A program made the translations under genes and the position numbers. This document shows positions 20,205 through 52,248 of a stretch of DNA of 64,000 bases, piece by piece. Every line of letters starts with the position of its first letter. Within the stretch, counting starts at the first letter, position 1. Under the pieces are notes generated by a model that worked only from the letters and a program-made list of their open reading frames with translations, was not told where the DNA came from and made no database searches. Source of the stretch: a virus; the IMG/VR virus record IMGVR_UViG_3300037070_005035, positions 1-64,000 of that record; one strand, given 5' to 3'.

Positions 20205-20783
20205 TCACTCCAACACCTTGTGGCAATACATTTGCGACCGAGATCCGCCAGTGGCTTGCACACCACCCAAAGGAGTACCAGTGCGAATAGCACGAGTCTT
20301 GATCGTCTCGCTGCCGCCAGTCGTATCGACGATCGTATTAACTGTCACACTGAAGTAATACTGCTCGCTGGTGGAGGCTGGTCGCTTGGCCTTCACAAGC
20401 GCGTGTGATAGCTCAACATCAGCGCTATCAGTCAACTTCGTTAGTACACTGGTGTCGGCGTCGTCCAAGAAGGTGGCGCCGATGGCCATCGTCAGCAGGC
20501 CCTCGACAAAGAAGATTCCGCCAGCCGGCACGACCAGACTCATGATGTCGGTATCGACGAGATTGATGCCGACATTCGGCGAGAGTTGGACGAATTCGGT
20601 GTCACCAGGAAAAGATTGATCGAATGGCAGCCACTGGGCCTCAGTCACACCCCAGTATTCTAGCCTGGCCAGCGTACTATGCCAGATAATCGGCCCGCCT
20701 TCATGGGCATCCGGTGTCCCGATCGCATCCCGCTGAGCGGTCGTCAGGATCACTGGTGATATTTTGCCTAAAGTGGCGGTCAT
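20205..20783 (-). CDS. Fibre-tip-like protein, paralogue 3
   Basis: A 192-residue protein, paralogous to the gene just downstream (shared QRDAI, WLPF and LTDSADVELS segments). A predicted beta-rich C-terminus suggests a fibre tip. The ATG overlaps the stop of the collagen-like fibre gene. Confidence 0.65.
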   Translation of the reverse strand: MTATLGKISPVILTTAQRDAIGTPDAHEGGPIIWHSTLARLEYWGVTEAQWLPFDQSFPGDTEFVQLSPNVGINLVDTDIMSLVVPAGGIFFVEGLLTMAIGATFLDDADTSVLTKLTDSADVELSHALVKAKRPASTSEQYYFSVTVNTIVDTTGGSETIKTRAIRTGTPLGGVQATGGSRSQMYCHKVLE

Positions 20784-22402
20784 GGCAACTCACATTTCAC
20801 CATCACGACTTTACCATCGAATTGAGAACCATCGGTGACCCGCATGTGCAGGTCTCCACCACTGGCCGGAACAACCAAGGCCCGATCGATATTCACCAGT
20901 TCATAACCATCGCCGAAGTCGGCATAGAACTGCACCGTGTAATGCTCGCCACAACCATGGGTCGATTCCGGAATCGTCATCGCCGAGTAGCCGCCGCTCG
21001 GCGTGCCCCAATCAGCAATCAGGAACTCCTCGACGTAAGTCGTCGCACCGGCGGCTGTGCTGGTGAATGTGATCTCATCAGGATTACTGAGCGTGATCGT
21101 CATCCCAGTACCAGGAACCAGCGTTAGCGTATCCGTCACGGAATCCGCCACCGCACTGCCACCAGTCGAAATAGCGATCGTCTCGAAAAGATTCTGATTC
21201 GTATTGGGCGATGAGTTAGTAATCGTGATCGTATCAGCCGCGCTAAGCGTGATCGCGATACCAGTCCCTGGAACAAGAGTGAGCGTATCTGTCGGAGAAT
21301 CCGCCACCGCACTGCCACCAGTCGAAATCGCCACCGTCTCAAATAGATTCTGATTGACGTTCGGTGCCGTATTGGTGATCGTAATCGTGTCAGTAGTCGC
21401 ATTGGTAGTAATCGCGATCCCCGTGCCATTCACCAGCGTCAGCGTATCGGTTGCGCTATCGGCCACAATGCTCGATTGGGTGGCCACCGCAATTGTCTCG
21501 AATAAATTCTGATTCGTATTCGGCGCCGTGTTAGTAATCGTAATCGTGTCAGTAGCCGCATTAGTGGTAATCGCGATTCCAGTACCGTTGACCAACGTTA
21601 ACGTATCGGTCGCACTGTCAGCCACAATACTGGACTGAGTAGCGACGGCGATTGTTTCGAATAGATTCTGCACACCGCCCGGCGAGGTGTTGGTGATCGT
21701 GATTTGGTCAGCCGCGCTGAGAGTGATTGCTATGCCAGTTCCCGGAACAAGAGTCAGCGTATCAGTTGGGGAATCGGCTACCGCACTACCACCAGTGGAA
21801 ATGGCTACAGTCTCGAAGAGATTTTGATTCGCTCCAAACGGCGCATCAAAATGAAAGTCCCAAGCGGCCCCATCGTATGTCCAGGCACGCACTAGATTAT
21901 CGTACCGCTCAATGTGCGAATCACCCTCGATCGGCCCCGCTGGCGGAGTAACCGGTGCCGCGCCAGGAGCACCGGCGGCACCTACCTCGACTGAGAATGT
22001 CTGGTTGCCATCCGCTTCGGCGTCACTGCCATCAACGCCATTTGTACCGTTGGTGCCATTGGTGCCATTCGTGCCATTGGTACCATTGGTCCCATTAACG
22101 CCATGGCAGATGTAGAACAATTGATCGACTTCGCCGACCGCCAATGTGCCGTCGCCGTTATCGTCCACGCCGACTTCGATCTTCCAGCCGCCGCCCGGGC
22201 AATTCACGCCGACCGCCTCGACCGTGGCCTTGATCAGACTGTTATTGCCATCATCACCGTCGATGCCATTCGTGCCATTCGTGCCAGCCGTGCCGGGATT
22301 ACCTTGTGGGCCAGTCGGGCCAGGCGGACAATCCTCGCACGTACCCGTGCCACCACCACCCGTCGTGCAATCAGTAATCCACCAATCATTTATTACTGGC
22401 AT
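20780..22402 (-). CDS. Collagen-like fibre with five tandem beta repeats
   Basis: A 540-residue protein: MPVINDWW head, short Gly-X-Y collagen blocks including a run of NGT triplets, and a globular insert. Five consecutive repeats of about 45-48 residues follow, each of the form NQNLFETxAxxT...VADSxTDTLTLVxGTGIAIT. The C-terminal domain is about 80 residues. The repeats at the DNA level are highly similar, so copy number could change by recombination. A trimeric fibre shaft is likely. Confidence 0.8.
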   Translation of the reverse strand: MPVINDWWITDCTTGGGGTGTCEDCPPGPTGPQGNPGTAGTNGTNGIDGDDGNNSLIKATVEAVGVNCPGGGWKIEVGVDDNGDGTLAVGEVDQLFYICHGVNGTNGTNGTNGTNGTNGTNGVDGSDAEADGNQTFSVEVGAAGAPGAAPVTPPAGPIEGDSHIERYDNLVRAWTYDGAAWDFHFDAPFGANQNLFETVAISTGGSAVADSPTDTLTLVPGTGIAITLSAADQITITNTSPGGVQNLFETIAVATQSSIVADSATDTLTLVNGTGIAITTNAATDTITITNTAPNTNQNLFETIAVATQSSIVADSATDTLTLVNGTGIAITTNATTDTITITNTAPNVNQNLFETVAISTGGSAVADSPTDTLTLVPGTGIAITLSAADTITITNSSPNTNQNLFETIAISTGGSAVADSVTDTLTLVPGTGMTITLSNPDEITFTSTAAGATTYVEEFLIADWGTPSGGYSAMTIPESTHGCGEHYTVQFYADFGDGYELVNIDRALVVPASGGDLHMRVTDGSQFDGKVVMVKCELP

Positions 22403-41514: not shown

Positions 41515-42531
41515 ATGTCGAGTCTGACGAAACGACCGAGCGGCATTTACTGGCTGCAATTTACCCTTGACGGACGGAAGCATACAAGGAGCCTGGGCCG
41601 GATAGATCGCGGCCTGGCGATGAGCATTTGTGGGAAGTTTGAAACATTGATGAGCGAAGGAAAGACGGGGCAAGCCATGGAGACAGTCACCGCTCAGGTC
41701 GCTCCCGAGCAGCGACAGTCAATGATTCATCTATGGGTGCAAGAATATCTGAAGGCCCTGGGCTGCAAGCCAGCCACGATGAAGACGCACTACCAAACCC
41801 TGGACCTGCTAACGGCTCAGTTCGGCACGTGCTCATTCCGGGATGTGGATTTCACTGGAGCACAAAAATTCGTAGCGTCACTCGGTCGATTCGCCGGGTC
41901 GACGCGGGCGAAGCATATCAGTCGAACCCGGCAATATTTCGATGCCGCAATCGATAGCGGAATCATCAGCAAGAATCCGTTTGAGTCATTTAAGTGCGGT
42001 AGTCAGCACAACCCGACACGATCACATTTCGTCAGCCGGGAGGACTACGAGAAACTCATGGCAGCCGCACCGAACCAAACGCTGAGGACAATCATCTCCT
42101 TGTCGAGAATCGGCGGCCTACGAATTCCGAGCGAGCTGCGCGGGCTCAAGTGGACAGATATCGAAGCGGAAAAGATTTCGATCACGGGACACAAGACAGC
42201 CAGTCGCGCGTTCCCGATGTTCCCGGAGCTGAAGGAAGAACTAAACGCGCTCAGTAGGAATCGCATGAACAATGGTACAGTAATCTCATATGACGGATGT
42301 TTGACCTATGCACTCCGGCAAATCATCCAACTGGCCGGATTGAAACGGTGGCCGAGAATTTGGCACAACATGCGAGCCTCTCGGATTACCGAGCTGAGTG
42401 ACAAATTCCCTGTCCAAGTCGTGTCTACCTGGATGGGAAATTCGCCTGAAATCGCACTTCGACATTATCTCTCAGTGACAGATTCCCACTGGGAACAAGC
42501 CTTAAACGAGACGCGACAGGACAGAACATGA
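41515..42531 (+). CDS. int: Tyrosine recombinase (phage integrase)
   Basis: A 338-residue protein. The N-terminal arm-binding-type part is GIYWLQFTLDGRKHTRSLGR. A core-binding domain follows (about 65-165), then the catalytic domain with R203 (GGLRIPSEL), K227, H284-x-x-R287 (IWHNMRAS), W306 (TWMGN) and nucleophile Y318 (LRHYLSVTD). It would integrate and excise the phage at an att site. The last eight residues (NETRQDRT) are encoded by the start of a GACNN array, so the native C-terminus may have been replaced. A TTGACC/TATTAT pair lies so close to the ATG that it may not be its promoter. Confidence 0.93.
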   Translation: MSSLTKRPSGIYWLQFTLDGRKHTRSLGRIDRGLAMSICGKFETLMSEGKTGQAMETVTAQVAPEQRQSMIHLWVQEYLKALGCKPATMKTHYQTLDLLTAQFGTCSFRDVDFTGAQKFVASLGRFAGSTRAKHISRTRQYFDAAIDSGIISKNPFESFKCGSQHNPTRSHFVSREDYEKLMAAAPNQTLRTIISLSRIGGLRIPSELRGLKWTDIEAEKISITGHKTASRAFPMFPELKEELNALSRNRMNNGTVISYDGCLTYALRQIIQLAGLKRWPRIWHNMRASRITELSDKFPVQVVSTWMGNSPEIALRHYLSVTDSHWEQALNETRQDRT

Positions 42532-42610
42532 CACGACAAGACCGGACTGGGCAAGACCAGACTTGGTCCGACATGACCAGACGTGACGTGACACGACAAG
42601 ACTTGATTTT
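42508..42610 (+). repeat. GACNN array 1
   Basis: About 20 units of the 5-base pattern GACNN, beginning inside the integrase C-terminus and ending GACAAGACTTGATTTT. It precedes csrA. Confidence 0.9.
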
Positions 42611-42613
42611 CAA

Positions 42614-42633
42614 CTGTGGAATATAAACCACAA
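42614..42633. promoter_or_regulatory. Dispersed palindrome, copy 7 (degenerate)
   Basis: CTGTGGAATATAAACCACAA: outer arms TGTGG/CCACA kept, inner right arm changed. It lies between array 1 and csrA, 22-41 bases before its start, with TATAAA at the centre. Confidence 0.55.
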
Positions 42634-42654
42634 CTTTAACCGAAGGATCAACCA

Positions 42655-42909
42655 ATGCTAGTTTTAGGACGACGAAGAAATGAATCAATTACCGTAGTAA
42701 CTCCGAGCGGCGAGCGGATCGATTTTAAAATCGTGACCATCGATGGCGGATACGCGAGAATTGGCATCACGGCCGAGAGGACGATACAAATTTACAGAAG
42801 TGAACTAGGAGAACGAGAACATGGGACTGAAGGACAGATCGGGCGCGAAATGGCTGCAGCTAACACGGGGCCGCTTAGTCCTCAAATCAAAGGACGGAAC
42901 GACCAGTGA
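42655..42909 (+). CDS. csrA: CsrA-family RNA-binding regulator
   Basis: An 84-residue protein. MLVLGRRRNESITVV is the CsrA N-terminus, and GYARIGITAERTIQIYRSEL matches the second half with its RNA-binding Arg. The family core ends near residue 55; about 29 extra residues overlap the next gene in another frame. CsrA dimers bind GGA motifs in mRNA leaders and change translation or stability. A GACNN array and a palindrome precede the gene (AAGG serves as SD). Phage-borne csrA could control phage or host messages. Confidence 0.88.
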   Translation: MLVLGRRRNESITVVTPSGERIDFKIVTIDGGYARIGITAERTIQIYRSELGEREHGTEGQIGREMAAANTGPLSPQIKGRNDQ

Positions 42910-43570
42910 ACATGATTCATTGGAAGGCCGGATAATCGGAATCGATTTCCGTGACAACGTCTACGACGGCAAGACGACCAGACAGATTCATCTGATATTC
43001 GATGATGGAGATGACCAATATCAACTTGCGATCGCGGTTGGGAGCGGATACGGGAAACAGTTGATTCTGAAGCTTGCGACAGCGGACCTGCTCCAGCCAG
43101 TGGAAATCACTCCGACTTTTGCGGAGGATGGGCCGCGCAAGAACTCCGGGATGTTCGTCAGCCAGTTCGGCCAGCATCTAAAACAGCTTTGGACGCGAGA
43201 CAACCCCGGGCCACTACCGCCACTGAAAGAGGTTGTCGTGAAGGGTCAAACAGTCTGGGATGACACCGAGCAGTGTGAGTTTCTGGAAGAGTACGTTACC
43301 AGCCAGCTTGTGCCACAGATTAAGCAGGGCATCACGGTTGAACCAACTGATATGCCGCCAGCAGGCGGCGACACCGAAGCGACCACGGAGCTACTAAAGC
43401 TGATCAGCAAGACTCTGAAGGATGTCCAGCCCGGCGACAACTCGAAGCTGGCAACGATCAAGGCTCGGATCGAGGCCAACAAGGACAAGCTAGGCGGAGA
43501 TTACCCGTTGGCATTGGAGTTGTGGTCGGGAGCGGTCGACAGATTGAAGGAAGATCATACACCGTTTTAA
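42821..43570 (+). CDS. Probable single-stranded DNA-binding protein
   Basis: A 249-residue protein. Residues 20-105 have an OB-fold-like pattern seen in phage SSBs (LEGRIIGIDFRDNVYDGK, IHLIFDDGDDQYQLAIAVGS, KQLILKLATADL). The middle is Pro-rich, then helical, and the protein ends KEDHTPF, an acidic tip ending in Pro-Phe as in SSB C-termini that recruit partners. It overlaps the csrA tail. Together with the Cas4-like nuclease it would serve recombination or replication. Confidence 0.6.
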   Translation: MGLKDRSGAKWLQLTRGRLVLKSKDGTTSEHDSLEGRIIGIDFRDNVYDGKTTRQIHLIFDDGDDQYQLAIAVGSGYGKQLILKLATADLLQPVEITPTFAEDGPRKNSGMFVSQFGQHLKQLWTRDNPGPLPPLKEVVVKGQTVWDDTEQCEFLEEYVTSQLVPQIKQGITVEPTDMPPAGGDTEATTELLKLISKTLKDVQPGDNSKLATIKARIEANKDKLGGDYPLALELWSGAVDRLKEDHTPF

Positions 43571-43572
43571 TC

Positions 43573-43654
43573 CTGACGCGACCTGACGAGACTTGACTGG
43601 ACGAGACGGGATGCGACATGACCCGACCTGACGGGACGCGACAAGACTTGATTT
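43573..43654 (+). repeat. GACNN array 2
   Basis: Starts CCTGACGCGACC and ends GACAAGACTTGATTT directly at the ATG of the next gene, leaving no room for a separate Shine-Dalgarno. Confidence 0.9.
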
Positions 43655-43888
43655 ATGATCACCAGCAAAATCGGACAACTGCTGTATCAGCGAGATGGTT
43701 ATCGAGAACTCGGCGAAGCCGAAAACATGCTGCGAGTACGCGACAAGCTGACCGCGATTGATTCGCTGTTCGAGGAGATGGTGGAGTGCATTGAGGAGTC
43801 AAACTGCAAGTGTAACCACCCTGTCTACAATCCGTGCCGGCGTTGTCGACTGATGCCGCGAATCGAAGAACTCAGAGGGAACGAATGA
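43655..43888 (+). CDS. Cys-rich small protein, paralogue A
   Basis: A 77-residue protein MITSKIGQLLYQRDGYRELG..., with CIEESNCKCNHP and NPCRRCRLMPRIEEL. A helical first half and a Cys cluster suggest a zinc module. It is homologous to the next gene (shared MITSKI, KLTxIDSL, MVExxE, CxC, RIxEL). There is no SD: an array abuts its ATG. Confidence 0.6.
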   Translation: MITSKIGQLLYQRDGYRELGEAENMLRVRDKLTAIDSLFEEMVECIEESNCKCNHPVYNPCRRCRLMPRIEELRGNE

Positions 43889-44121
43889 TCACCAGCAAGA
43901 TTCGCGAGCTGTGGAAAACCATCGACGTCAGCGATGAATACCGGGATCGATACGACGCCAATAGAAAGCTGACCGACATTGATTCGCTGTGGGACGACAT
44001 GGTGGAGTTCGTTGAGGGATCTGGTTGTGCCTGCTTCGACGCATGCGGTCGCAGATGGACAGACGCACCATGTGAGTTCTGTAGTCTGATAACGAGAATC
44101 AAGGAACTCACTGGGAAGTAG
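43885..44121 (+). CDS. Cys-rich small protein, paralogue B
   Basis: The ATG at 43885 overlaps the stop of paralogue A (ATGA), with GAGGGA upstream. 78 residues: MITSKIRELWKTIDVSDEYR..., GSGCACFDACGRRW, PCEFCSLITRIKEL. Tandem duplicate of the gene before it. Function unknown. Confidence 0.65.
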   Translation: MITSKIRELWKTIDVSDEYRDRYDANRKLTDIDSLWDDMVEFVEGSGCACFDACGRRWTDAPCEFCSLITRIKELTGK

Positions 44122-44128
44122 GGTCAGC

Positions 44129-44347
44129 ATGTCGATTGAAATGAATACAAGCGAAGAAGTTGAGTTGCTGAACGGCGAATGCTGGCGGGCAGTTTCCGTC
44201 TGGCACGGGAAAGGCGATTCTTGGTTAACCATCCAAAAAATAATCGACGGAATTGTCTTCATCCGACAAGTTGAGAGATGTGACCTGAAACATCCAAGTC
44301 ACTGTAATTTTATGCTCATTAATCTATGGGAACCCATGGACGAGTGA
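44129..44347 (+). CDS. Hypothetical beta protein
   Basis: A 72-residue protein (MSIEMNTSEEVELLNGECWR...), with WLTIQKIIDGIVFIRQVERC. Small beta-rich fold; not recognised. It starts 7 bases after the previous gene. Confidence 0.5.
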   Translation: MSIEMNTSEEVELLNGECWRAVSVWHGKGDSWLTIQKIIDGIVFIRQVERCDLKHPSHCNFMLINLWEPMDE

Positions 44348-44369
44348 AGCTAGGACAAGGAGCTGCGAA

Positions 44370-44594
44370 ATGGTATTCGCGTTTGTGTTTTTTGTGATTC
44401 TGATTGGCTCTTGGGCGGCCTGGGAATTTATTTCATCGCCAGTCGTCACTGATGATAGATATGAAGAATTCTCGACCCGACATGACATGACGCGACGAGA
44501 CGAGACCGGACTAGGCGAGACGAGACCGGATGGGACAAGACAGGACGTGACGAGACAAGACTTGATTTTTTCCGGAGATAACGACGCCGCATAA
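44370..44594 (+). CDS. Small membrane protein whose 3' half is a GACNN array
   Basis: A 74-residue frame with AAGGAG upstream. Residues 1-22 (MVFAFVFFVILIGSWAAWEF) are a membrane helix. From about residue 35 onward the codons fall in array 3, giving a Thr/Arg/Asp-rich tail (RHDMTRRDETGLG...). The array has probably invaded the gene end and removed the original stop. Confidence 0.5.
   Translation: MVFAFVFFVILIGSWAAWEFISSPVVTDDRYEEFSTRHDMTRRDETGLGETRPDGTRQDVTRQDLIFSGDNDAA
44472..44571 (+). repeat. GACNN array 3
   Basis: About 20 units inside the end of the small membrane gene, ending GACAAGACTTGATTTTTT. A 22-base spacer separates it from array 4. Confidence 0.9.
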
Positions 44595-44716
44595 CTCGAC
44601 CTGACTCGACAGGACATGACGGGACGCGACTTAACTGGACAAGACTCGATCAGACGTGACTCGACCAGATGCGACAGGACCCGATGCGACAGGACCCGAC
44701 AAGACTTGATTTATTT
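44594..44716 (+). repeat. GACNN array 4
   Basis: About 24 units, ending GACAAGACTTGATTTATTT, then AGAGG as SD for the gene at 44734. Contains GATGCGACAGGACCC twice in a row. Confidence 0.9.
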
Positions 44717-44733
44717 AGAAAGAGGCAAAATTG

Positions 44734-45063
44734 ATGGAAATGGGTATCGTGACAATCGACGGGGCAATTCATGGCGAGCGAGGTGAAACACAAAGACTAA
44801 TTGCCGATGAGGGCGTGCGGTGGATCTGCCTGCTGCTCAAAAAGAATGCCGACTACGGCTGCTCTATCTGGGACGAGCCAATGCTATGTCCAGGCATGTC
44901 GTCCTCGTCGGCAATCCTAGTACGGATGGGGGATAAGATCAATCGATTGAAATCGCTGATGGCCACTCATGCCGAAGTATCTGATGAGTCGATCGACGAC
45001 ACGCTACGGGACCTGGGAGCGTACTGCCTACTGCTACTGGCCAATCCGAACAGGAATAAATGA
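44734..45063 (+). CDS. DUF1599-like (nucleotide-modification-associated) protein
   Basis: The ATG at 44734 gives 109 residues. The pattern NADYGCSIWDEPMLCPGMSSSSAILVRMGDKINRLKSL, then DESIDDTLRDLGAYCLLLL, matches the helical DUF1599 family of phages (Lys-Asp-Tyr-Gly, DK-RL and DTL-DL motifs), linked by genome context to nucleotide metabolism or base modification. No substrate is proven. Array 4 lies directly upstream. Confidence 0.65.
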   Translation: MEMGIVTIDGAIHGERGETQRLIADEGVRWICLLLKKNADYGCSIWDEPMLCPGMSSSSAILVRMGDKINRLKSLMATHAEVSDESIDDTLRDLGAYCLLLLANPNRNK

Positions 45064-45287
45064 AAGGAAAGGTGAACATGAAGAACCTGCGCATTGAATT
45101 CCAGGAATACCGCCAAGCCTGTTACGGCGATCAGGAAATTTCTGATGGCCCACTCAGAGAGATCGAGCAGGCATTTCTATCAGGTATACACCTGGCGCTG
45201 AACCGGCCACTGCTGAAGCCGAACATGATCAGCATTCAGAAACAGATCAAAGCCCGCCTACTTGAATTAGGAGCCATCACGAAATGA
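45060..45287 (+). CDS. Hypothetical small protein
   Basis: A 75-residue protein; the first ATG overlaps the previous stop and a second in-frame ATG follows at residue 7 after AAAGG. Helical with QEYRQACYGDQEISDG. Its stop overlaps the next start. Not recognised. Confidence 0.5.
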   Translation: MKGKVNMKNLRIEFQEYRQACYGDQEISDGPLREIEQAFLSGIHLALNRPLLKPNMISIQKQIKARLLELGAITK

Positions 45288-45841
45288 AACACGAAGTCGA
45301 ACTAGGGAAGCTAATCGAATCGCTGCAGCAGCGGGACGCCGTGCATGTGGCAGTGGCGCCGGTAATGGCTGCTGAGGAACTGTATCCAGGTCAGCACATC
45401 GGTTTTGTGGAAGGAACGAATGAACAAGTCAGAGGAGTCGCGAGGCTGATTGGAGTCGTGGACCCATTTCTGGAAAATAATGTTTTACCCGGCCAGAGGT
45501 TCTGGATGTTCCTTTATCCAAATACAATCACTGGCCTGCGGCACGACTGGTCACATCCGGCATTCAATAGCGAGGCCAGCAATCCCACTGGCGATCTAAA
45601 TTTCGATGCCGCCTGTATCGTGGCCAGGATGTGCGGCAAGACATACGAAGCCCTCATGGACGACGCCTATCGATGCGTTGGCAATGGGACCAATAAGTAC
45701 GGCGACTATATCATGGACAACTCCGAGCGGTACAAGGGCGTCGGATATGACTTGTGGAAACAGTTCTGGAAACACTACGAGCAAGTCCATGATGTAAAGC
45801 TGGAAGAAGAATACGACGCGCCTTACACGTGCAGTTGCTAA
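45284..45841 (+). CDS. Hypothetical protein with RFWMFLYP motif
   Basis: A 185-residue protein. The first half (AVAPVMAAEELYPGQHIGFV, VDPFLENNVLPGQRFWMFLYP, NTITGLRHDWSHPAF) resembles a family I have seen in environmental phages and planctomycetes without function. The second half is helical (MCGKTYEALMDDAYRCVG) and acidic, ending TCSC. Confidence 0.5.
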   Translation: MKHEVELGKLIESLQQRDAVHVAVAPVMAAEELYPGQHIGFVEGTNEQVRGVARLIGVVDPFLENNVLPGQRFWMFLYPNTITGLRHDWSHPAFNSEASNPTGDLNFDAACIVARMCGKTYEALMDDAYRCVGNGTNKYGDYIMDNSERYKGVGYDLWKQFWKHYEQVHDVKLEEEYDAPYTCSC

Positions 45842-46052
45842 ATGACCAGGCTCAACTCGACATGACAAGACCGGACACGACAAGACTCGAATCGACTTGA
45901 CGTGACAAGACCGGACTGGGCAAGACATGGCGAGACATGGCGCGATGCGATTAGACGCGACGAGACAAGACACGACCCGACTCGACGAGGCCAGGTTAGA
46001 CATGACTAGATTAGGCCAGACCCGACCCGACGAGACTTGACTTGATTTTTTT
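45842..46052 (+). repeat. GACNN array 5
   Basis: About 42 units, the longest array, starting one base after a stop codon and ending GACTTGACTTGATTTTTTT. It is followed by GAAAGGGG and an ATG that opens only a four-codon frame. Confidence 0.9.
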
Positions 46053-46079
46053 GAAAGGGGACACATGAAACAAACCTGA
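46053..46079 (+). pseudogene. SD-ATG stub of a lost gene between two arrays
   Basis: GAAAGGGG-ACAC-ATGAAACAAACCTGA: a complete SD and start codon followed by only three more sense codons before TGA, which is formed by the CCTGAC start of the next array. This looks like the start of a gene whose body has been replaced by an array. Confidence 0.6.
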
Positions 46080-46167
46080 CAAGACTAGACGAGACGCGAC
46101 AGGACAAGACAGGACCCGACTGGACTAGTTTCGATTTGATCTGATCTGACAAGACTTGATTTTTTTC
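46074..46167 (+). repeat. GACNN array 6
   Basis: Begins CCTGACAAGAC and ends TGACAAGACTTGATTTTTTT, then AAAAGGA and the ATG at 46182. Confidence 0.9.
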
Positions 46168-46181
46168 AAAAGGAAAACCAA

Positions 46182-46757
46182 ATGAAAGCCGCGACTGTAT
46201 TATTGAAAAGCTTACCGGGCAGCGAACTATTCTTCGGCAAGCCCAAGACCTCCAAGAAGCTGGCCAACGAGACGCACGACCAATTCGACCAGAGGACTTG
46301 GAAGGAATCGGTATCGCACCACGAAGGCAAGCTGTTTATCCAGCCATTCGCTTTGAAGAACGGTCTGGAGTCATCAGCAAAATGGCTATCGATACCGATT
46401 CCCGGCGAGGGGAAGAAGACATTCACGAAGCGTTTCGTGAGCGGAATCCTGGTCGTCGATAAGCTGTGGCTGACAGACGACACGGGCAAGGCATTGACCA
46501 TGGAGGACGTGGAACCGCTATCGCTATTCGTCCCCTCCGATGGTGTACGCGGAAGCGGCAAGCGGGTATTTAGGATCTTCCCTTCCGTCAAGTCATGGAT
46601 GGCTTACGCGGAAATTCATGTTATTGATCAGAAGATCGATAAAAAAATTCTAGAGGAGCACCTGACGTGCTGCGGCAATTTCGTTGGATTCGGCTCGATG
46701 CGAGCGCAGAATGGCGGGATCAACGGACGATTCTCGATTGAAGAATTGCAGTTTTAA
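46182..46757 (+). CDS. Conserved phage protein of unknown function
   Basis: A 191-residue protein. DQRTWKESVSHHEGKLFIQP, LKNGLESSAKWLSIPIPGEGK, LFVPSDGVRGSGKRVFRIFP and GNFVGFGSMRAQNGGINGRF form a set I recall from phage proteins of unknown role. The tail with GFGSxR and GGxxGRF resembles RAMP-type nucleic-acid-binding proteins, but this is weak. It stands alone between arrays 6 and 7. Confidence 0.6.
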   Translation: MKAATVLLKSLPGSELFFGKPKTSKKLANETHDQFDQRTWKESVSHHEGKLFIQPFALKNGLESSAKWLSIPIPGEGKKTFTKRFVSGILVVDKLWLTDDTGKALTMEDVEPLSLFVPSDGVRGSGKRVFRIFPSVKSWMAYAEIHVIDQKIDKKILEEHLTCCGNFVGFGSMRAQNGGINGRFSIEELQF

Positions 46758-46758
46758 C

Positions 46759-46841
46759 CTGACGCGACACGGCATGACCAGACATGACATGACGAGACGC
46801 GACAAGACATGACGAGACCGGACGCGACAAGACTTGATTTT
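46759..46841 (+). repeat. GACNN array 7a
   Basis: Starts CTGACGCGAC after a stop codon and ends GACAAGACTTGATTTT. No gene follows; eight bases later array 7b begins, as if a gene between the two had been lost. Confidence 0.9.
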
Positions 46842-46849
46842 ACAAATCA

Positions 46850-46984
46850 ACACGACAAGACGAGACGCGACACGATAGGACAACACAAGACCGGACTCGA
46901 CGGGACGTAACTGGACTGGATCGAACTAGACATGACCCGGCTCGACCTGATTCGACAGGACAACACCTGACAAGACTTGATTTT
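46850..46984 (+). repeat. GACNN array 7b
   Basis: About 27 units, several broken (GGACAACACAAGACC), ending TGACAAGACTTGATTTT. An AGGA and an ATG at 47006 follow. Confidence 0.9.
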
Positions 46985-47005
46985 CAACCTACAGGATAAA
47001 AAAGC

Positions 47006-47527
47006 ATGGAATCATATTCATTTCGACACGGATTGCATCACTCAACCTCGCTGGCCATCGACCTGCTGGAAAAAGGCAAGCCGGGCGACACGATCGACCG
47101 GTCGCGGATGGCTGAGCAGATCGGCGAGCCGTGTGAATGCGGCGAGGTTGGCTATCAGCACGTGCGGAGCGCGATCAATCACGTACTGAACCGATCGGGG
47201 GTGGCCTGGGAATGGGACAGGAATTTGAAAGTCTGGCTATGCCTGGACGATCCGCAGCGCGTGAACAGCCACTCCAGAACCAATAAGGCGGTATCCAGGA
47301 AGGCCCGCAAGGGGCTGCGGCTGGCATCCACGATTAATACGAAAAAGCTATCCAACGACGAGCGGCGCGACCATCAACTGAATATCGTATCCGGCTCGCT
47401 TTCGGTGGCGGCGATTTCGTCGCCATTCAGGACACGATTGGCCAATAGTGGAGTAGGAGACAGGTTGCTGAATACCGACCAGCTCGCCAATCAACTGGCG
47501 GCGATGCTGTCCAATGGCTCAACCTGA
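47006..47527 (+). CDS. Hypothetical protein, possible winged-helix
   Basis: A 173-residue protein. GDTIDRSRMAEQIGEPCECG, then YQHVRSAINHVLNRSGVAWEWDRNLKVWLC has the helix-helix-wing rhythm of a winged HTH. The C-terminal half is basic and polar (SRKARKGLRLAST). It could be a replication or regulatory protein. Its stop codon is formed by the first unit of array 8. Confidence 0.5.
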   Translation: MESYSFRHGLHHSTSLAIDLLEKGKPGDTIDRSRMAEQIGEPCECGEVGYQHVRSAINHVLNRSGVAWEWDRNLKVWLCLDDPQRVNSHSRTNKAVSRKARKGLRLASTINTKKLSNDERRDHQLNIVSGSLSVAAISSPFRTRLANSGVGDRLLNTDQLANQLAAMLSNGST

Positions 47528-47728
47528 CCGGACTGGACATGACATGACTCGATTTGACAAGACTCGACAGGACGAGACTCGGTAGGACATGACAAGACTG
47601 GACGCAACACGACGTGACGGGACAAGACATGACTTGATGAGGCGCGACTGGACTTGACTCGACCTGATAAGACCGGATGCGACACGGTGAGACTTGACGA
47701 GACTTGACTAGACAAGACTTGATTTTTT
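47524..47728 (+). repeat. GACNN array 8
   Basis: Starts CCTGACCGGAC, contributing the TGA stop of the previous gene, and ends GACAAGACTTGATTTTTT. About 41 units, with an internal ACATGACTTGATGAGG that looks like a decayed terminus. Confidence 0.9.
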
Positions 47729-47749
47729 CAAAACGAAAGGAACAAACAA

Positions 47750-47965
47750 ATGGCTTGCCAAACATGCGATCACACGATGCAAGGAATATCACGAGTGTTT
47801 TGGTGTCCGCGCTGCGGAACAATCAAGATGCCTGGCTCGGCACCTGAATTCGAAGCCCCTTCGATCGTTGACAGAGTCCATGCATTCATGAAGTACGCCA
47901 AAGTTGATGGATCAGATCCGTTCGTGGAAAGCATCTACAGGTCACTGGTGGAGTGCGTTGGATGA
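47750..47965 (+). CDS. Small zinc-ribbon protein
   Basis: A 71-residue protein with CQTCDHTMQGI and FWCPRCGTIK, a four-Cys zinc ribbon, followed by a helical tail. AAAGGAAC is the SD. Similar ribbons are common in phages; function unknown. Confidence 0.6.
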   Translation: MACQTCDHTMQGISRVFWCPRCGTIKMPGSAPEFEAPSIVDRVHAFMKYAKVDGSDPFVESIYRSLVECVG

Positions 47966-47972
47966 AATAATC

Positions 47973-48057
47973 CAGACATGACATGGCACGTCACGACTCG
48001 ACATGACAGGACCCAACATGACGGGACGAGCCCTGACAAGACAAGACTTGATTTTTT
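47973..48057 (+). repeat. GACNN array 9
   Basis: About 17 units, ending GACAAGACAAGACTTGATTTTTT, then GAAAG and a TTG start at 48074. Confidence 0.9.
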
Positions 48058-48073
48058 ATTGAAAGAACACCCG

Positions 48074-48427
48074 TTGAATACGGCAATCAAAATAATCGGA
48101 AGCCAAAGTGCTGAGCGACTGGCCGCGATCCGTGGACCGATCCGACCCATTTGGATAAGTGATCAAGAATTAGAAATCATGATTCAGTGTTTGCAGCCAA
48201 GCCCAACCGACATCGACTTCCTGGCTGAGCGGAATATCCGATGGTCAGGGTCTATGTTGGAATCATTGAAGCGGGAGCAGGAGCTACGCAGGAGTAAGAA
48301 GTTGATCCACGACCTGGGAGGGAAGCTGCAATACCAGCTAAAGGCCCATGTCGACACAACGGACACTGTTAAGGAGATCTTAAGTGCCCAGGAAAGAATT
48401 AACGCTATCGAATCATCAGCCATCTAA
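48074..48427 (+). CDS. Hypothetical helical protein, TTG start
   Basis: The TTG at 48074, 8 bases after GAAAG, is preferred to an upstream ATG that lies inside array 9. 117 residues: MNTAIKIIGSQSAERLAAIR..., ISDQELEIMIQCLQP, then a long charged helix (ESLKREQELRRSKKLIHDLG). Possibly a coiled-coil accessory protein. It overlaps the next start by 44 bases. Confidence 0.5.
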   Translation: MNTAIKIIGSQSAERLAAIRGPIRPIWISDQELEIMIQCLQPSPTDIDFLAERNIRWSGSMLESLKREQELRRSKKLIHDLGGKLQYQLKAHVDTTDTVKEILSAQERINAIESSAI

Positions 48428-49289
48428 AGTCGACTTGGCCTGGATGCCGCCTGGCAAGCGGACTCGGCTGGGAGAGATCTCAAGCAGGCTAAAGGAGAAT
48501 GATATTCAAGGGGCCAGGTGGCTAATCATCAAAGCGGAGCTGGTTGCGGAAGCAAAGGGGATTTTCGATGCCCACTCAGGCAAGACGGAAACCTGGGGTG
48601 GCTGGTGTGAGCAGAATGATATGGATCGCAGTTTATCGTACCATCTGATATCGATTTGGGAGAGATTTTCCACCGCCAGTGGGCTGCTGGAGAATTTCAG
48701 CGTATCGGCCATTCGGCATCTGGGGGTGTGTAGCTCGGACCAGCCGGCCAAGCATGCCATCATATTGGCCACGGATGGCGAGTTCGTTTCATTTTCAACG
48801 GCCAAGCAGATTGTATCCAAGTGGACGGAAGGCGGAGCGGCGGCGATGAGCCAAGCTGCTGATGATGACGAAGCGGACGAGGCGCCAGTTAGTAGCGCCC
48901 CCGCCGCTCCGCGGCAACTCCTTCCTGGAGGAAATGATAGTCCTGGGGGAGGCGGGCGGGAGCCGGTGCGGTCTGCCGGAGGAGGCAGGGAATCGGCGCC
49001 GGCCATTAACCGTGGCACGACCGTTTCGTACACACCAGCGACGACTGCAAAACCAATCAAGGAATCCTGCATAGGCAAGGAATTCAATCCGATCAATCAA
49101 ATCATACGTGCGAAGGAAAAGATCAACCAACTAATGCGGATTCTGGATGAAGAGGATCTAAAGCCGACATTAGGCCAGAGGTGGAACGCCGGACTTGTGA
49201 ATCTCTGCGATCAATTACTTAAATCATTGGGAGACGCGGAGAAAAATGTCTATCGAAAACTCGAACAACGGCAGGGGAAAAGAAATTGA
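48384..49289 (+). CDS. Hypothetical DNA-binding-like protein
   Basis: The GTG at 48384 has AAGGAG 8 bases upstream and gives 301 residues. RLGEISSRLKENDIQGARWL and WGGWCEQNDMDRSLSYHLISIWERFSTASG resemble phage DUF3102/ParB-associated proteins in which a helical domain recognises DNA. A low-complexity Ala/Gly/Pro middle (150-215) and a C-terminal helical domain follow. Role unknown; it is next to a regulator gene. Confidence 0.5.
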   Translation: MPRKELTLSNHQPSKVDLAWMPPGKRTRLGEISSRLKENDIQGARWLIIKAELVAEAKGIFDAHSGKTETWGGWCEQNDMDRSLSYHLISIWERFSTASGLLENFSVSAIRHLGVCSSDQPAKHAIILATDGEFVSFSTAKQIVSKWTEGGAAAMSQAADDDEADEAPVSSAPAAPRQLLPGGNDSPGGGGREPVRSAGGGRESAPAINRGTTVSYTPATTAKPIKESCIGKEFNPINQIIRAKEKINQLMRILDEEDLKPTLGQRWNAGLVNLCDQLLKSLGDAEKNVYRKLEQRQGKRN

Positions 49290-49482
49290 TTTTAGGTCCA
49301 TGATAGCCCGTGAGCTGAAGCGCCAAGAAAAGAGCGTGACTTGGTTGGCCCAACAGGGTGGGTGTCCACATCGAAATAGCATTTATCGATTTCTGCGCAA
49401 GGAGCGGGACGTGAGATCAGCGTCATTGGCGGCGATGCTGCGAGCCCTGGGACTTCACATGATCGGACAATATGGAAAATGA
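49246..49482 (+). CDS. XRE-like helix-turn-helix regulator
   Basis: A 78-residue protein with GGAG before the ATG. KSVTWLAQQGGCPHRNSIYR and RDVRSASLAAMLRALGL form a compact five-helix HTH like Cro/CI-type repressors. It overlaps the previous gene. It is the only small HTH regulator in the window, so it is a candidate ligand of the dispersed palindromes; this is inference. Confidence 0.7.
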   Translation: MSIENSNNGRGKEIDFRSMIARELKRQEKSVTWLAQQGGCPHRNSIYRFLRKERDVRSASLAAMLRALGLHMIGQYGK

Positions 49483-49492
49483 CAGATAACAT

Positions 49493-49572
49493 CACGCGAC
49501 TAGACCGGACTAGACATGACGAGATTTGACCGGACTGGATGGGACCAGACGAGACGCCACAAGACTTGATTT
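49493..49572 (+). repeat. GACNN array 10
   Basis: Ends CCAGACGAGACGCCACAAGACTTGATTTA, a terminus repeated exactly at the end of array 11. No gene follows before array 11 begins. Confidence 0.9.
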
Positions 49573-49579
49573 ACATTTG

Positions 49580-49759
49580 AGACAACCCGACGCGACTCGG
49601 CACGACCAGAAGCGACTTGACAGGACGAGACCTGACTAGACAAGACTTGACTAGACCGGACGAGACAAGACTGGACTGGACTTGACCAGACGTGACCTGA
49701 TGGGACTAGGTCTGGCCCGACAAGATGCGACCAGACGAGACGCCACAAGACTTGATTTA
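49580..49759 (+). repeat. GACNN array 11
   Basis: About 36 units, with an internal GACTAGACAAGACTTGACTAG that resembles a terminus. It ends GCCACAAGACTTGATTTA just before the gene at 49774. Confidence 0.9.
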
Positions 49760-49773
49760 CCATGGAGCTTGCA

Positions 49774-50004
49774 ATGGATTTCCTGGCTGACCTCCGCACC
49801 AAGCGTGATCAATTGATATTTGACGACTGGATGGGAGATCGATACGGCATCCTGGTCCGGCCAGACAGTAGCCTGCCGGACTGGGGTGCCAGGCTGGAAA
49901 GCCACGGAGTGGCCGTGGGAGTGGAGGCACATCGATCACTGCTGGAGTACCAGGAGTTCATCCGCAAAGGCCGCTGCTCGATCTCGGATGCCGAGCTGAA
50001 TTAG
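49774..50004 (+). CDS. Hypothetical protein
   Basis: The ATG at 49774 has GGAG 6 bases upstream (the alternative ATG at 49762 has none). 76 residues: MDFLADLRTKRDQLIFDDWM, SLPDWGARLESHGVAVGV and a helical end. Not recognised. The next gene starts 4 bases after its stop. Confidence 0.5.
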   Translation: MDFLADLRTKRDQLIFDDWMGDRYGILVRPDSSLPDWGARLESHGVAVGVEAHRSLLEYQEFIRKGRCSISDAELN

Positions 50005-50008
50005 GGCC

Positions 50009-50203
50009 ATGCCTAAGCGGAAAGAAATAGATTGGGCTCACTGCATCATGTGCGGCATGCCGAGAGTATTTTCCGAAGACCCTGACTTGTGCGCTTTGTG
50101 TTGGTTTGGATGCCAACCCGACGAGATCGCCAATCTTATGACCATCGAATCCGATTGGACTCCAGAACAGGATGCGGAACCGGGATGGCTCGACGAACGA
50201 TAA
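50009..50203 (+). CDS. Small zinc-binding protein
   Basis: A 64-residue protein: HCIMCGMPRVFSEDPDLCAL and CWFGCQPDE give a zinc site of paired Cys; acidic tail. It overlaps the next start by 19 bases. Not recognised. Confidence 0.55.
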   Translation: MPKRKEIDWAHCIMCGMPRVFSEDPDLCALCWFGCQPDEIANLMTIESDWTPEQDAEPGWLDER

Positions 50204-50496
50204 AACACAAGCCAAGAACCGTCAATTCACCGCAATACCGCCATTCAGATGGATCGGTGAATACATTGTTTGACGCCTTGTTGGACTTCGAATCAGATCA
50301 GCACTTCCGCCCACGCCGTACCAAGCCCACCGATGCCCCGCCTGGCACACCGGAAAAGATCTCCGTGCTCTCCACTCGCCTCGAGCGCGGCGAGGAGCTG
50401 CACCACGAGAATGATTACCGCTACCCGACTCCGCCGCATTGGATGATGATCATCCAGGATATCGAAGATGAAGTATTTCAGCAGAAAATGAGGTAA
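50185..50496 (+). CDS. Hypothetical protein
   Basis: The ATG at 50185 gives 103 residues (MARRTIKHKPRTVNSPQYRH...), with a basic front, acidic middle and a helical end (PPHWMMIIQDIEDEVFQQKM). A longer frame from 50089 overlaps the gene before and is rejected. Its stop is followed immediately by a palindrome. Confidence 0.45.
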   Translation: MARRTIKHKPRTVNSPQYRHSDGSVNTLFDALLDFESDQHFRPRRTKPTDAPPGTPEKISVLSTRLERGEELHHENDYRYPTPPHWMMIIQDIEDEVFQQKMR

Positions 50497-50497
50497 A

Positions 50498-50522
50498 AGT
50501 TGTGGAACAGTATTCCACAACT
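50498..50522. promoter_or_regulatory. Dispersed palindrome, copy 8
   Basis: AGTTGTGGAA-CAGTA-TTCCACAACT, perfect 10-base arms with a 5-base centre, the same form as copy 4. It separates the plus-strand gene ending at 50496 from the inverted array 12. Confidence 0.8.
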
Positions 50523-50533
50523 AACGAAAGGGA

Positions 50534-50600
50534 AATCAAGTCTTGTCGCGTCCTGTCGAGTCAAATCGGGTCTTGTCGTATCCTGTCAAGTCGCGTCTTA
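50534..50600 (-). repeat. GACNN array 12, inverted
   Basis: The units read GTCNN on the plus strand. On the minus strand the array ends GACAAGACTTGATTT, the standard terminus, but no minus-strand gene starts after it. It follows the minus-strand gene at 50626-51108, so array orientation follows the flanking gene. Confidence 0.85.
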
Positions 50601-50625
50601 ATTCAGTCAACGTTGCGTCAGCGCG

Positions 50626-51108
50626 CTATTCTCCCCACGTACTTGGTTCCTGCAGTAAATCCAGCAGTAGTTTCAACCTAGGATCACGCTTGGCCGGCTG
50701 CGCTGCCAACCAGATTAAATACTCACGATCAATGGCCATGACTTCGGCTACTGATTTTCCTTTGTACTTGCCAAACCAGAATTTTAGCTCGTCGCCATTA
50801 GGAGCAACATTCGAATCAGCTAGCTCGAAATTACCACTTGCTCGTGCGCGACGGCCAAGATCGCGATCATTGTATTTCGACCAATCATCACGCGGCATCT
50901 CAGCGTTCCCTTGCCGCATCCCAATACGTCTCATACGCTTCGTACAAACATCACGTACATCGATCGCATCCCTACATCGCTTCCAAATCCGTCTCGCGCC
51001 CCGAACCCCAAGCTCGCCGAAGACCGTCGAAGCTGGTACCAACTTTCCGACTTGGAAGGCGCGGGCAACCAGCGTGAGTCGTGTCGTTTCCACTGTTATT
51101 TTCTGCAA
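50626..51108 (-). CDS. Protein with DUF3820-like C-terminal domain
   Basis: A 160-residue protein. The C-terminal 60 residues contain KFWFGKYKGKSVAEVMAIDR and EYLIWLAAQ, the (F)GKYKGxx-EV---DxxYLxWL signature of the DUF3820 small domain that occurs alone or attached to exonucleases. The N-terminal 95 residues are basic and not recognised. It is the only minus-strand gene within the array region. Confidence 0.6.
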   Translation of the reverse strand: MQKITVETTRLTLVARAFQVGKLVPASTVFGELGVRGARRIWKRCRDAIDVRDVCTKRMRRIGMRQGNAEMPRDDWSKYNDRDLGRRARASGNFELADSNVAPNGDELKFWFGKYKGKSVAEVMAIDREYLIWLAAQPAKRDPRLKLLLDLLQEPSTWGE

Positions 51109-51467
51109 TTAGGCAATTGCTAGCATAAAGGGGGCCTAGGAAATAATGTGTAAGTCTTAGCCAGATGGCCCTTTGGCCCCTTATTACCGTCCTAACGAGA
51201 ACGGGCGAGTGCCGCGACCCCTGCGGTCGAAGTTATCTTCGGTTCACCCGGCCTAGATCATGTCATCGTGCCGGTTGTGCATGACTGGCCGGCTTGCCAA
51301 GCCAGCGCTTACAGCCAAGAATTTCATATTGCCAGGCGACCGAACCACCAGCGACCTGGCAATAATCTTTTCACAGCCGTTGTTAGTCATGCTCTCGCGC
51401 TACCACCGAGCTACTAATTACACCGGGAATTCTAACTGTACACGCTTCCCGGACGCGCATTAAAAAA

Positions 51468-51491
51468 CCCCCAGCTTTTGAGGGCTGAGGG
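51468..51491. terminator. Bidirectional Rho-independent terminator
   Basis: CCCCCAGC-TTTTGAGG-GCTGAGGG, an 8-bp stem with one mismatch, with A residues before (51462-51467) and CTGTTTTT after. It can stop transcription from either side. Confidence 0.7.
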
Positions 51492-51695
51492 CTGTTTTTG
51501 CGTTGTACACGGCCACGTGCAAGGACGCAAAGCTTCAAATTGTACATGTCGCCATCCTTGTGATGTGGCCGTGTCTTCCTGACAGAATCTTATCTCACCT
51601 TCACCATCGCGTCAACTTTCCTCTTGTAAAATTTCACGAACATTTCAGATAATCAATCTTAACCGCCCGCGTGGGCGGTTAGCTGTGCCCGCAGC

Positions 51696-51733
51696 GGAGG
51701 TCGATTAGTTTGCCCCATCGGCCTCCAATTTTT
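51696..51733 (+). terminator. Rho-independent terminator
   Basis: GGAGGTCGAT (51696-51705) pairs with ATCGGCCTCC (51717-51726) with one G-T wobble, an 11-base loop, and a T-run at 51729-51733. Confidence 0.75.
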
Positions 51734-51789
51734 CCATCAAAAGCGAAATTACCATCGAAATAGATCGCCGTCTAGTTTTTGGTGAATAA

Positions 51790-52020
51790 TTAAATTTCGT
51801 TTCTGTCTAGGCATATTTCAACGACTTTTCGGCACATTTCAATGTCAAAGAAGCCGATGTAACAATCACCAACTGGTATTTCTAACTGACGTGCGAGCCA
51901 GGACTTAGCGGCACGCCGATCTTCTATATCACCAAAGCTCCAGATCCTGTCGAACGCGGCAATTGCCCTCTTTCTGGCTCCATCAAGCACCATCTCTTGA
52001 CCAAATTCGCACATGCACAT
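51790..52020 (-). CDS. Hypothetical protein under its own promoter
   Basis: The ATG at 52020 gives 76 residues (MCMCEFGQEMVLDGARKRAI...). Helical; contains RQLEIPVGDCYIGFFDIEMC. Not recognised. The longer frame from 52062 overlaps the palindrome and promoter. A promoter at 52059-52087 reads into it. It is the second minus-strand gene in this otherwise plus-strand region. Confidence 0.5.
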   Translation of the reverse strand: MCMCEFGQEMVLDGARKRAIAAFDRIWSFGDIEDRRAAKSWLARQLEIPVGDCYIGFFDIEMCRKVVEICLDRNEI

Positions 52021-52052
52021 TGATAGATTTCCTTTGACATTCGGTTGAAAGT

Positions 52053-52071
52053 TGTGGAACACTATTCCACA
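52053..52071. promoter_or_regulatory. Dispersed palindrome, copy 9
   Basis: TGTGGAA-CACTA-TTCCACA, perfect 7-base arms. It covers the -10 box of the leftward promoter at 52059-52087, 33-51 bases before the start at 52020. Confidence 0.8.
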
Positions 52072-52087
52072 GATGGCTACTTGCCAA
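52059..52087 (-). promoter_or_regulatory. Leftward promoter overlapped by palindrome copy 9
   Basis: On the minus strand TTGGCA, 17 bases, TAGTGT. The -10 lies at the palindrome centre, the same arrangement and same TAGTGT as at 33852-33879. Its -35 overlaps the -35 of the rightward promoter at 52081. Confidence 0.65.
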
Positions 52088-52108
52088 TTATAACCTGATT
52101 GGTATTAT
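52081..52108 (+). promoter_or_regulatory. Rightward promoter, TTGCCA-16-TATTAT
   Basis: TTGCCA, 16 bases, TATTAT with TGG before the -10. The GATTGGTATTAT string is shared with the integrase start region. Transcription would begin near 52115, immediately before a hairpin with a U-rich tail. Confidence 0.7.
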
Positions 52109-52114
52109 TCTCAC

Positions 52115-52175
52115 AGTGGCGGCCGAGTACCGAAAGCGGAAAATTCCCATGCGCGGAAAGGCCGCCTATTTTCTT
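52115..52175 (+). ncRNA. Candidate small RNA or attenuated leader
   Basis: Between the promoter and array 13. GGCGGCC (52118-52124) pairs perfectly with GGCCGCC (52160-52166), followed by TATTTTCTT. The transcript would be about 60 bases: a closed stem with a 35-base purine-rich loop containing GCGGAAA twice. It has its own promoter and terminator-like end and no open frame. It may also act as an attenuator for the genes after array 13. Confidence 0.45.
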
Positions 52176-52248
52176 CCTGACGTGACCTGACGTGACGTGA
52201 CCTGACCAGATCCGACCAGACAGGATGTGACGAGACAAGACTTGATTT
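52176..52248 (+). repeat. GACNN array 13
   Basis: Starts CCTGACGTGACC, contains CAGACAGGATGTGACG and ends GACAAGACTTGATTTT. Last array in the window; the gene at 52285 follows. Confidence 0.9.

Follow-up and report, generated by a model that had tools for sequence, protein, structure and literature searches.

Degenerate GACNN arrays beside a Vipr gene in a viral genome are very probably guide RNAs of a phage-carried VIPR system

In the 64,000-nucleotide stretch of viral DNA analysed here (the window; positions 1 to 64,000 of IMG/VR record IMGVR_UViG_3300037070_005035, a record of 68,260 bases), fourteen arrays of a degenerate pentamer, GACNN, occupy a region that also holds an adjoining pair of genes, vipr and an accessory gene (vap), and has an integrase beside it. 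We consider it very likely that this phage carries a VIPR system whose guide RNAs (vrRNAs) are encoded by the arrays; the RNAs would be expressed, processed and directed to targets accordingly. VIPR (Viral Interference Programmable Repeat) was reported in a 2026 preprint (PMC13142463). According to that text, a RAMP protein acts with RNAs built of 9-16 repeats, each a GGY triplet and an NN pair, and closed by a fixed tail; the NN pairs read double-stranded DNA while skipping one base, in most cases the codon wobble base, and the complex represses competing phages and satellites. The preprint names seven types, with ‘GGY/NN motifs, or a related consensus’, and its authors describe the guide code as the first known without continuous reading (PMC13142463).

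Pentamer arrays and the gene pair of the window

A chain scan for GACNN units confined the arrays to 42505-52248 of the window, with scores of 26-89, whereas ten Markov shuffles of the window reached no more than 10.6. Cutting at the common end ACTTGATTT gave exactly 14 arrays of 12-41 units each, summing to about 1.6 kb, in agreement with the number and total length given by the original prediction, which had been made from the letters alone. GAC was retained in about 60-90% of units, the commonest replacements across the family being AAC, GAT and GGC, and all 16 possible pairs were present at the NN position with near-maximal diversity, so the earlier claim of a kept GAC and a free NN was borne out. 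The tail ACTTGATTT closes all 14 arrays. Its 14-base form ACAAGACTTGATTT is exact in 13 of them, all 13 copies lying within the array region, and the array ending at 46048 has the sole variant, GACTTGACTTGATTT.

Thirteen arrays, each with its tail, lie on the plus strand. Array 1 (42505..42609, 20 units) starts inside the 3' end of the integrase reading frame; it is followed by array 2 (43575..43654, 15 units), array 3 (44474..44568, 18 units), array 4 (44583..44712, 25 units), array 5 (45844..46048, 40 units with the variant tail) and array 6 (46073..46162, 17 units), the last immediately upstream of vipr. Array 7 (46756..46840, 16 units) starts at the vipr stop codon and array 8 (46849..46983, 26 units) immediately precedes the accessory gene, beyond which are array 9 (47516..47725, 41 units), array 10 (47975..48054, 15 units), array 11 (49488..49572, 16 units), array 12 (49579..49758, 35 units) and array 14 (52179..52248, 13 units). 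Array 13 (50533..50597, 12 units and tail) is the lone array on the minus strand, and directly 3' of it, on the same strand, stands a terminator-like hairpin, GTTGTGGAATACTGTTCCACAAC followed by TTTT (50499..50521). Related imperfect inverted repeats, GTTGTGGAA...TTCCACAAC, were seen in the window at 42612-42640, 50499-50521 and 52050-52073.

In about half of the cases an array opens some tens of bases at most from an upstream stop codon, or overlaps that codon; for the majority, 15-45 bases separate the array end from the start codon that follows. The position just before a Shine-Dalgarno sequence and a start codon, claimed originally for nearly all arrays, holds for most of them, with exceptions: eight arrays stand in four back-to-back pairs (44474-44712, 45844-46162, 46756-46983 and 49488-49758), and the minus-strand array is followed by the hairpin and no gene. 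Likewise, the CCTGAC opening said to be common was found in about five arrays only. Arrays 11 and 12 are alike in their 3' parts and some arrays have blocks in common, showing that copying from array to array has occurred. Rfam gave zero matches in the window and in 12 related loci, and hence, at the curated threshold, no sign of hammerhead ribozymes between the arrays.

The vipr gene (46182..46757, plus strand) encodes a RAMP-fold protein of 191 amino acids with a Gly-rich loop, GFGSMRAQNGGINGRF, and fits the description of Vipr as a RAMP homologue that has an RRM core and a G-loop. A profile of its family, consisting of 47 sequences drawn from the loci of the array search, found a single match in the PDB, the ‘SUSP1 Vipr protein’ (36pp), over the full length and with E=1.2e-20. 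All 47 members matched phrog_4652, a family of unknown function, and Pfam contained no convincing family for any of the 47. The AlphaFold model of the window Vipr (predicted local distance difference test, pLDDT, 97) had type VII Cas7 and type III Csm3 RAMP subunits as its best Foldseek matches.

The accessory gene (47006..47527, plus strand) encodes a vap-like protein of 173 amino acids, modelled (pLDDT 92) with a winged-helix-like N-terminal part followed by long helices; no good fold match was obtained for this model. In the PDB, the profile of its family gave weak matches only, to the DNA-binding domain of O6-methylguanine methyltransferase, and it matched the reading frame beside vipr in phage SUSP1 (E=1.9e-8). 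The SUSP1 genome served as a control: the Vipr-family profile recovered vipr (2e-23), the accessory-family profile recovered its neighbour (1.9e-8), and pentamer arrays on either side of vipr and vap emerged from a GGYNN scan. The matches of both families, to Vipr and to its neighbour in SUSP1, lead us to assign the system of the window to VIPR.

Recurrence, strand and lineage in other viruses

Seven consecutive exact GACNN units were found in well over 100 viral contigs, about half of them plain tandem repeats and the remainder diverse arrays. A second search pattern, built to exclude plain repeats, added further contigs, for a total of 161 diverse arrays in 96 loci (the window counted). The presence of the same array type in dozens of independent contigs excludes an assembly artefact, a concern raised in the original prediction. 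Matches in genome contigs were mostly low-diversity repeats in high-GC genomes, without association with vipr, and among cultured phages and plasmids there were almost no close relatives of the window Vipr.

The reading frames after the arrays had recurring lengths of about 160-208 amino acids, and sequence searches resolved the array-adjacent proteins into two families, with the gene orders array-vipr-array-vap-array or array-vap-array-vipr-array. Of 81 viral loci whose GACNN arrays are diverse, 63 contained vipr or the accessory gene; of 64 in which all the repeats are plain, 2 did (Fisher p=7e-22). The median distance from array to vipr reading frame was 7 nucleotides. The link between arrays and gene pair therefore extends to unrelated phages, and it may be tighter than these counts indicate, since diverse-array loci lacking the genes are often short stretches. 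In the two relatives with fully listed matches (G099 and G106), all arrays fall within about 2 kb around the gene pair. In the window there are 14 tails over 10 kb, between the integrase, a CsrA homologue and many small genes of unknown function, and the 14 tails would probably correspond to 14 or more guides.

Plain GACCC-type repeats were noted in contigs L021, L040, L044, L050, L123, L126 and L128. A flanking sequence, ATTGAACCCC..., is common to L040, L044, L050, L123 and L126, and a vipr homologue lies 1-3 kb from the plain repeats in L021 and L040. A single run of 386 pentamer units (L185:4675-6559, 1.9 kb) stands next to a vipr homologue on a contig of a Gemmatales metagenome-assembled genome (MAG).

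In the window, the fixed tail is at the 3' end of the GAC strand in every array, the minus-strand array included. In the relatives, 12 of 90 arrays have an intrinsic terminator following the GAC strand at its 3' end, compared with 2-3 on the opposite side. In about 16 loci, vipr and the GAC strand are on opposite strands; among them are L017, L031, L034, L056, L082, L102, L124, L125, L185, L216, L256 and L263. Terminators follow the non-GAC strand in three cases among these opposite-strand loci, so that the RNA there may be GUCNN, and hairpin tails in L017, L056, L082, L102 and L185 suggest a GUCNN guide RNA.

In a tree of Vipr proteins, most of the opposite-strand loci are placed in the half holding SUSP1, and the window Vipr, on a long branch, belongs to a different clade with strong support, apart from SUSP1; the usual warnings on long branches attach to this placement. 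Depending on the lineage, the triplet may have G, A or U in the middle. We are somewhat more doubtful than confident of a fuller proposal, namely that the window represents a GAC-triplet VIPR lineage whose guides also supply many ordinary phage genes with their untranslated regions and are cut from operon transcripts, each Vipr clade fixing which base stands in the middle of the triplet (GGY, GAC and apparently GUC) and thereby giving mutually separate guide codes.

The guide code and competing explanations

As predicted for VIPR, the composition of the NN pairs is like that of codon positions 1-2 in genes of either strand, and this indirect test supports their role as guide letters. With both strands mixed, NN frequencies correlated with codon positions 1-2 at r=0.76, with positions 2-3 at 0.45 and with positions 3-1 at -0.11; the fit to positions 1-2 exceeded that to 2-3 by 0.020 bits per unit (bootstrap 95% 0.007-0.031), and TA occurred among the NN pairs at 0.56 of expectation (95% 0.43-0.70). 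Inside 12-unit segments, strand coherence reached z=3.7 against within-phage shuffles. Moreover, conservation of GAC in the relatives is about 0.78-0.86 at units 2-12 from the 3' end and about 0.6 at units 15-16, matching a guide of about 12-14 units (published 9-16).

Each array RNA would thus be a chain of fixed GAC and free NN units ending in the fixed 3' tail, ...GACAAGACTTGATTT, with the 3' end of the guide RNA predicted at GACTTGATTT. The 191-residue Vipr would line this RNA with one subunit to each pentamer, gripping the GACs and leaving the NN pairs exposed; these pairs would jointly base-pair with one strand of the DNA target, one target base, usually the codon wobble, being skipped from one pair to the next. 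The Vipr-RNA complex would keep the target, which probably lies in competing phages, prophages or satellites, from being transcribed, and the winged-helix-like partner (47006-47527) would assist it. RNA production, binding, the one-base skip and repression are what we infer from published VIPR. Several plus-strand arrays touch the upstream stop codon and leave little room for a promoter, so that, judged from this anatomy alone, the RNAs are probably cut from longer operon transcripts.

Several observations weigh against an assignment as VIPR guides. The phase 2-3 control was also strand-coherent (z=2.5), and the strand-coherence test is therefore supportive only. A one-skip target search of 1.4 Mb of array loci returned nothing above shuffles, an exact 8-unit one-skip search of all viral contigs with window arrays 2, 3, 7 and 10 gave 83 matches with flanks at about chance, and no target was found in the host families of two related systems (families of Geobacteraceae and Desulfomonile MAGs). 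The window triplet is GAC instead of GGY, several window arrays (25-41 units) are longer than the published 9-16 repeats, and the tail is known from its sequence alone. The best extended one-skip match to array 3, at L297:635-685, agreed at 26 of 34 positions, with a flank agreeing at 10 of 18, not significant among 17 matches.

The arrays might instead be cis-acting mRNA leaders, read by an RNA-binding protein with a 5-nucleotide period and controlling the genes downstream, although we judge this improbable. TRAP, whose (G/U)AG target triplets are separated by two bases, is the model for such a protein, and a TRAP-like ring would account for fixed triplets and free pairs. In the window, most arrays are indeed followed directly, on their own strand, by a ribosome-binding site and a start codon, and a CsrA homologue (42655-42909; Pfam CsrA, E=2.8e-13) is encoded directly after array 1. 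Across phages, however, the arrays flank one specific gene pair and not genes in general, they also occur after the last gene, ending in terminators, and the protein associated with them is a RAMP related to a guide-RNA protein; furthermore, free NN positions in a leader would need no coding-like signature. TRAP-like binding was dropped when the arrays proved to be tied to the gene pair and the pair matched Vipr. The window triplet is GAC, not (G/U)AG, and no TRAP was present among the array-region genes searched. The core of a CsrA site is ANGGA, which is impossible inside GACNN units, as the letter two before GGA is always C, and CsrA binding was likewise rejected.

The view that the arrays form RNA leaders survives in part: they probably act as RNA, but are best read as guide RNAs and not as leaders. 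Their association with start codons seems to be a by-product of arrays filling intergenic gaps, since in relatives the arrays are grouped around one particular gene pair, terminators close some of them, and in some lineages they lie on the other strand.

We give very little credence to a role of the arrays as double-stranded DNA, in which a protein of phage or host would bind the GAC that recurs at 10-bp intervals along one face. The exact 5-bp period and the occurrence, by lineage, of both orientations relative to vipr would suit such binding, but the window tail is at one defined array end and the terminators of relatives favour the same end, which fits RNA, and small indels between units are present in the arrays of relatives. 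The helical-face binding proposed originally is not needed to explain the arrays. An origin of the arrays as neutral slippage repeats, or as linkers at which gene modules recombine, is scarcely plausible, for although blocks are common to some arrays (the 3' parts of 11 and 12), slippage would yield like units where here the triplet is kept and NN is near-maximally diverse, simple slippage repeats of the same pentamer occur elsewhere without the gene pair, and simple tandem repeats were set aside on the ground that low-diversity repeats do not accompany vipr.

The tyrosine integrase-like reading frame (41515-42531) is immediately upstream of array 1, within which its stop codon lies, and suggests a temperate phage or an integrated element. 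Collagen triple-helix repeat proteins, encoded at 17527-19077 and 20780-22402 (minus strand) of the window, are probably virion fibres.

Comparison with known systems

The start-associated sequences of cluster K mycobacteriophages, which the original prediction had named as the nearest analogue, also recur before phage start codons. By its own description, however, they are short and do not form arrays, and the guide RNAs of phage VIPR (PMC13142463) are nearer.

The arrays are recurrent and are neither a CRISPR nor a transposon, as had been stated at the outset: only pentamer arrays, and no CRISPR repeat-spacer arrays, were seen in the array region, and no cas gene was found among the ten array-region genes searched in Pfam and PHROGs. 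With class 1 CRISPR-Cas, in which Cas7 and Csm3 are the RAMP backbones, the window system has the protein fold in common and, we infer, a protein filament along a guide RNA. In contrast to the continuous spacer of those systems, the VIPR guide is read as separated pairs (PMC13142463).

The closest counterpart is the type II VIPR of SUSP1 (PMC13142463; PDB 36pp). Both systems have a homologous, phage-encoded RAMP protein of about 190-200 amino acids and pentamer arrays with a fixed triplet, free NN and a fixed 3' tail, flanking the gene pair; the adjoining accessory genes are of the same family. The two differ in the triplet, GAC in the window and GGY in SUSP1, so that the window pentamers come under the published description only through its wording ‘related consensus’, among whose triplets GAC may already be included. 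Furthermore, the window has 14 arrays over 10 kb among ordinary genes, where four guides beside vipr are described for SUSP1; its arrays are longer, and only the sequence of its tail is known.

The window phage provides a large set of natural guides and represents a lineage whose fixed triplet differs; the role of the triplet, the separation of guide sets by triplet and the excision of guides from ordinary mRNAs thereby become testable, and the arrays give a simple DNA signature for finding further VIPR systems. With its GAC triplet and 14 guides scattered over 10 kb, the system is unusual next to that of SUSP1, and these features may amount to a variant of VIPR.

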